Assembly: GCA_029974595.1 (NCBI GenBank)
Contig: JARKRC010000056.1
Coordinates: 62,001-126,000, forward strand
Length of the DNA stretch: 64,000 nt
Direction of reading: 5' to 3'
Origin: Ereboglobus sp.
GTDB taxonomy: Bacteria > Verrucomicrobiota > Verrucomicrobiia > Opitutales > Opitutaceae
Shown: positions 11,958-13,322 of the stretch, in pieces
How the letters are laid out: every line of letters begins with the position of its first letter
How positions within the stretch are numbered: position 1 is the first letter of the stretch
The notes under the pieces: generated by a model
What the model was told of the DNA's origin: nothing
What the model saw: the letters and a program-made list of their open reading frames with translations, nothing else
Databases searched by the model: none
Translations under genes and position numbers: made by a program

Positions 11958-13322
<1,365 letters not shown>

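Follow-up and report, generated by a model that had tools for sequence, protein, structure and literature searches.

We suggest that the pair of in-frame TAG codons in the accC gene of this Ereboglobus sp. belongs to a single local error of the published consensus sequence and is not a biological stop-codon signal, a reading to which we give about an even chance. Nonsense lesions and consensus errors are both ordinary, and either an error of sequencing or a gene that was broken only recently is more likely than a new way of reading the stop codon. The weights attached below to an error, to a null allele and to read-through are our judgements.

Two TAG codons in a single-copy accC

The gene for the biotin carboxylase subunit of acetyl-CoA carboxylase (ACC) occupies positions 11958–13322 on the minus strand of the window, i.e. 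the whole 64,000-base stretch of DNA that was analysed, and comprises 455 codons including the stop, from ATG to TAA. Reading of this strand gives exactly two internal stops and no frameshifts: TAG at codon 257 (12552–12554, minus strand), where close relatives usually have Lys, and TAG at codon 261 (12540–12542, minus strand), where relatives usually have Lys or Arg. Both codons stand in the record as the preliminary description had reported, and its statement that the frame is otherwise intact and free of indels is borne out. With X written for each TAG, the translation scores 714 bits against TIGR00514 and 728 bits against NF006367 (both NCBIfam); in the search of the whole genome the TIGR00514 score was 713.5 bits against a cut-off of 626.5, covering positions 1–444 of 449. 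The match to AccC (TIGR00514; solved examples 8hz5 and 1bnc) extends over the whole length, with ~75–89% identity to AccC of the same bacterial family, and the gene adjoins accB. The uninterrupted frame of an AccC under the code in use was not found, TAG standing at codons 257 and 261.

The genome holding the window (G000; 4,074,106 bases in 77 contigs, 96.4% complete) contains one accC over the cut-off, with the same two TAG codons, located ~74 kb inside a 316 kb contig (C17). No second copy was detected in it, either by the profile search or by a DNA search that used the 301 bases surrounding the site, and the earlier proposal of a pseudogene backed by an intact copy elsewhere is thus not supported. 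Among the 116 family genomes having an over-cut-off accC, G000 alone (1/116) carries in-frame stops in this gene. For this survey 150 genomes were drawn; the remaining 34 had no over-cut-off accC, some of them showing partial matches only, and such an absence is no proof of loss.

A 47-base patch with four deviating codons

AccC was compared with 133 relatives (loci L002–L114 and L235–L258; tblastn E-value at most 1e-80, with the best piece kept for each locus), which are not all independent species, some being present in two collections (L038 and L251, with identical codons), and with a close-relative set of 34 sequences restricted to at least 80% identity. At codon 261 the close relatives have 16 Lys and 18 Arg and the full set 78 Lys and 47 Arg, in line with the Lys first assigned to this position, with Arg as an alternative. 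The Glu assigned to codon 257 did not hold: close relatives have 33 Lys and one Arg there, and the 133 have 74 Lys, 19 Glu and other residues for the rest.

Adjoining the TAG pair are two further changes, overlooked at first. Codon 270 (12513–12515, minus strand) encodes Tyr where the relatives have Asn (97), Gly (21), Ser (14) or Thr (1; n=133), and codon 272 (12507–12509, minus strand) encodes Val where Gly is found in 133/133. Only at codons 257, 261, 270, and 272, out of 454 positions, does the G000 AccC agree with none of the 133 relatives, not one of which has the two TAG codons, Tyr270 or Val272. All four deviations fall within 47 bases (12508–12554, minus strand), and all are alike in being purine-to-T changes on the coding strand when set against the commonest codons of the relatives: AAG at 257, AAC at 270 and GGC at 272, each one base from the G000 codon, and AAG at 261, where AAG and AAA are equally common and AAG is one base from the TAG of G000. 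Four codons drawn at random from 454 would fall within a 16-codon span with a chance of 0.00012 (200,000 draws; span picked post hoc). The clustering of the four unmatched positions in 16 codons thus upholds the earlier view that the TAG pair is unlike random decay, and the patch is probably one event, not four.

Alignment suggests that the column of Gly272 lies close to the active site. Tyr268, Thr273, and Glu275, each present in 133/133 relatives, are kept in accC, and the change of Gly272 to Val breaks this invariant stretch from Tyr268 to Glu275. In the alignment with 1bnc, the E. coli enzyme, the partners of Glu275 and Glu288 are Glu276 and Glu288, which we take to be metal-binding residues.

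Several candidate explanations of the patch were tried and rejected. Its G+C content of 70% is equalled or exceeded by 18% of the 47-base stretches of the window, so extreme G+C was dropped as a cause. A systematic error tied to sequence context finds no match on C17, where CAAGGCC occurs 119 times on both strands versus two occurrences of CTAGGCC, both in the accC patch. Gene conversion or templating by a diversity-generating retroelement was set aside because the 301-base query matched G000 elsewhere only over short stretches; one of the four changes, moreover, is at G and not at A, which speaks against a retroelement origin. Methylation-linked C-to-T change from Gln codons fits poorly with Gln in 4/133 relatives at codon 257 and 0/133 at 261, Lys or Arg prevailing. 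Codon 264, Ala instead of Glu, was considered as a fifth odd codon of the patch and discarded, as Ala is also found in 7/133 relatives.

Constraint on the rest of accC and on the other ACC genes

With codons 255–275 removed, accC gave a dN of 0.065–0.085, a dS of 0.68–2.1 and a dN/dS of 0.03–0.12 in comparison with seven relatives whose synonymous sites have diverged. Gene-wide decay was rejected on these ratios and on the lack, beyond codons 257–272, of any position differing from all 133 relatives, with a reserve as to positions 3, 148, and 413. Measured against the 34 close relatives, the G000 AccC differs from all at 11 positions, seven of them outside the patch (3, 57, 148, 319, 331, 360, and 413), and those at 3, 148, and 413 are departures at near-invariant columns. 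By a similar measure, 30 close relatives have 0 to 4 unusual residues each, and the three outside the patch do not appear clearly unusual for an AccC.

The gene for the biotin carboxyl carrier protein, accB (13434–13943, minus strand), lies open upstream of accC, matches TIGR00531 with 164 bits and shows no departures at columns otherwise invariant in 79 relatives. In G000, accA, accB, and accD are all open, with scores like those of the relatives searched. The constrained remainder of accC, together with the open accA, accB, and accD, indicates that any end of selection on AccC must be very recent. With pseudogenes that arise by nonsense mutation accC shares the premature stops in a recognisable gene, the same gene being absent from two genomes of the genus, but it differs from them in having no indel, no spread of decay and all its lesions within 47 bases.

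A search for similar patches by comparison of G000 genes with those of one of these two genomes (G003) had little power, as only 16 pairs passed 70% identity and 70% coverage. By this crude measure three pairs had five and one had four radical changes per 16 codons, a density equal to that of the accC patch; in the alignments, these four clusters lay at the starts of proteins or where conservation is weak. Of the 16 pairs, one had a stop inside the alignment, five residues from its start, which by our own reading lies upstream of the gene's own start, and the other stops in the gene-pair comparison are taken as antisense or spurious frames. The search gave no support for the accC patch as exceptional.

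ACC subunits and a biotin transcarboxylase triad in related genomes

The preliminary description had relied on AccC being essential, a premise that is weak in this genus. No accA, accB, accC or accD was found in two of its well-assembled members, G001 (one contig, 99% complete) and G003 (50 contigs, 100% complete), for which reason accC is possibly dispensable here; both carry fabD and fabH over curated cut-offs. Weak matches in these two genomes are taken as carbamoyl-phosphate synthase in the accC search and as the carboxyltransferase and biotin carrier of a decarboxylase in the others. A member of another genus of the family (G012, 94% complete) likewise has no detectable ACC subunit, with fabD and fabH present, and G002 gives the same ACC-less picture but is only 65% complete. 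As a separate observation, G020 of the same family (190 contigs) has accA and accD, while accB and accC were not found in it, which may be an assembly gap. In G002, a 1041-aa frame (locus L173, contig C90, ORF 316–3441) is matched weakly by biotin carboxylase and by biotin carrier.

Of the eight genomes searched, six (G000, G001, G002, G003, G005, and G012) combine subunits of the MmdA type and the 5S type with a small biotin carrier. The other two, G004 and G020, have no MmdA-type and no strong 5S-type match, with accA and accD present, and each of the eight has at least one of the two, accA/accD or the triad. In G001, the carboxyltransferase (517 aa) matches mmdA TIGR01117 over its full length with 731 bits, under the cut-off of 998.8; the 5S-type protein (501 aa), which has no biotin domain, spans NF008984 with 453 bits, under the cut-off of 827; and the biotin carrier has 128 aa. 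All three exceed Pfam cut-offs (Carboxyl_trans; HMGL-like and PYC_OADA; Biotin_lipoyl) as representatives of the three subunit types, 12S, 5S, and 1.3S. Stops were seen inside the 5S-type gene matches of G000, G003, and G005; the G000 gene is an open 554-aa frame, from which we take the stops in G000, and tentatively those in G003 and G005, to lie where the match runs past the gene end. The observation on the triad and the ACC-less genomes covers loci L164, L165, L167, L168, L171, and L291. Triads of this kind usually serve in the formation of propionate or in decarboxylation. Judging from its predicted components (an oxaloacetate-side 5S-like subunit, an MmdA-like 12S subunit and a small biotin carrier), the triad could make malonyl-CoA by carboxyl transfer.

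Next to accC in the window lies the gene for methylenetetrahydrofolate reductase (MTHFR; 11071–11949, plus strand; TIGR00676), a neighbour common to the same-genus genomes that have no accBC at this place. The order of an MFS transporter, a DegP/Prc-like-region protein and MTHFR ahead of accBC is kept in G001 and G003, in which the gene following MTHFR differs from accBC, and tblastn over 20 kb stretches found no accBC remnant near MTHFR in either. Elsewhere in the window, the minus strand at 34257–51225 encodes three DUF4838 proteins, a sulfatase, a nucleoside hydrolase and abhydrolase protein and a GH31 enzyme, perhaps a polysaccharide-use locus, and two adjoining frames at 54693–59396 and 59239–63891 (1567 and 1550 aa) carry autotransporter beta-domains and PATR repeats.

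Possible consensus error or recent null allele

A technical cause is what we infer for the patch. A stretch of ~47 bases in accC would have been called or assembled from poor evidence, such as few or damaged reads, and the poor calling would have put A at four places of the plus strand, two of them producing TAG and two missense codons; AccC in the actual organism would in that case be ordinary. Counting for such an error are the confinement of the patch in an otherwise constrained, single-copy accC accompanied by open accA, accB, and accD, the single type of change at all four positions, and the lack in G000 of a second accC or a gene-conversion donor. To these are added the lack of any other internal TAG standing out on C17 and the gaps in the tRNA set (see below), a sign that the assembly is incomplete in places. 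Counting against it are the lack of a systematic context error (119 CAAGGCC versus two CTAGGCC), the unremarkable G+C of the patch (18% of stretches being as rich) and the position of the site ~74 kb inside a 316 kb contig. It would also be an odd coincidence for a random error to strike a gene that two well-assembled relatives have lost, and the three unusual residues at near-invariant columns outside the patch point the same way.

Somewhat short of an even chance, in our judgement, is a real and very recent null allele, in which one clustered mutation event broke accC and the cell survives because malonyl-CoA could come from the biotin transcarboxylase instead, as we suppose for the sister species without ACC. 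The mechanism could be, for example, error-prone synthesis past damaged purines. Lesion bypass puts A opposite damaged purines and so leaves clusters of purine-to-T changes, a rule which the patch would fit. A null allele also agrees with the comparative picture: G001 and G003 have lost accA, accB, accC, and accD from view while keeping fabD and fabH, with no accBC remnant near MTHFR by tblastn; G012, in a different genus and 94% complete, has none of the four subunits either; and the transcarboxylase triad is found in G000, G001, G002, G003, G005, and G012, no genome among the eight missing both it and accA/accD. It requires, however, that four changes arose together while accC and accB show hardly any further decay, i.e. 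a rare clustered mutation caught before much else had decayed, accA, accB, and accD are still open, and the feeding of fatty-acid synthesis by the transcarboxylase is a role proposed from gene content.

Stop-codon usage and read-through

By our own gene prediction, TAG ends 18 of the 174 genes of at least 150 aa on C17 and eight of the 120 whose codon score is strong, each of the two counts including the accC fragment. The earlier argument that TAG is an ordinary stop here, against global recoding, is confirmed by the 18/174, if not by the two examples originally cited: the letters TAG are present at 19448–19450 and 54674–54676, but the genes they would end are not strongly supported (a 112-aa ORF in the first case, a codon score of 0.07 in the second). 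Stops with coding-like sequence on both sides number 14 on C17; two are the TAG codons of accC, and the other 12, never TAG, are taken either for gene ends with another frame behind them or for spurious frames, one of the 12 lying antisense to accC. Across the 316 kb of this contig, no further internal TAG was conspicuous. None of 38 tRNA matches in G000 had a CUA anticodon, in a set that is incomplete, without Asp, Asn, and Ile tRNAs, and these missing genes mean that the assembly is not complete everywhere.

Amber recoding is known from pyrrolysine-type and suppressor tRNA systems. With these accC has in common an in-frame TAG within a conserved frame; it differs from them in that TAG is a usual stop here, other genes with internal TAG are not evident on C17 and a CUA tRNA was not seen in the incomplete set of G000. 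Functional read-through, with an amber suppressor inserting an amino acid at each TAG, possibly to switch fatty-acid synthesis in a regulated way, is therefore very improbable, although both codons stand where close relatives usually have Lys or Arg and the frame beyond them is open and conserved up to the normal stop. Besides the tRNA matches, incomplete as they are, and the use of TAG as terminator of 18/174 C17 genes (accC fragment included), the stops occur in the accC of 1/116 family genomes only, and the product would keep Tyr270 and Val272, placing Val at a Gly of 133/133 relatives, presumably close to the active site. This last point tells against the amber read-through offered as an option in the preliminary description, and we regard recoding or read-through of the accC TAG codons as unlikely. 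A split AccC, in which a piece of codons 1–256 (12552–13322 with the first TAG, minus strand; 256 aa) would work together with a piece restarting at ATG codon 289 (11958–12458, minus strand), deserves next to no credence: both pieces are open and start with ATG, but codons 257–288 would be lost, and with them Glu275 and Glu288, presumed metal ligands by the alignment with 1bnc.

Taken as a whole, the first reading of this locus was sound on the intact frame, the non-random pair and TAG as an ordinary stop, and found no support for a second copy or for read-through, its premise of essentiality being weak in this genus.

Implications

The TAG codons of accC do not hold up as an amber signal. If the consensus is in error, annotation would class accC as broken or lost on possibly four wrong bases. 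If the null allele is real, the biotin carboxylase would have just been lost and malonyl-CoA for type II fatty-acid synthesis would be supplied by the biotin transcarboxylase, without ATP-driven carboxylation, leaving the organism part-way to the full loss of ACC seen in its sister species; this extended scenario we consider doubtful. Searches of the open-licence literature, PMC3199775 included, brought up no account of a loss of ACC for this group, subscription journals lying mostly outside this scope.

The family members without ACC that retain type II fatty-acid synthesis genes are the more interesting by-product of the analysis and are worth more than the TAG codons themselves. For a genus of the Opitutaceae with fabD and fabH but no ACC gene, the source of malonyl-CoA becomes a testable question.
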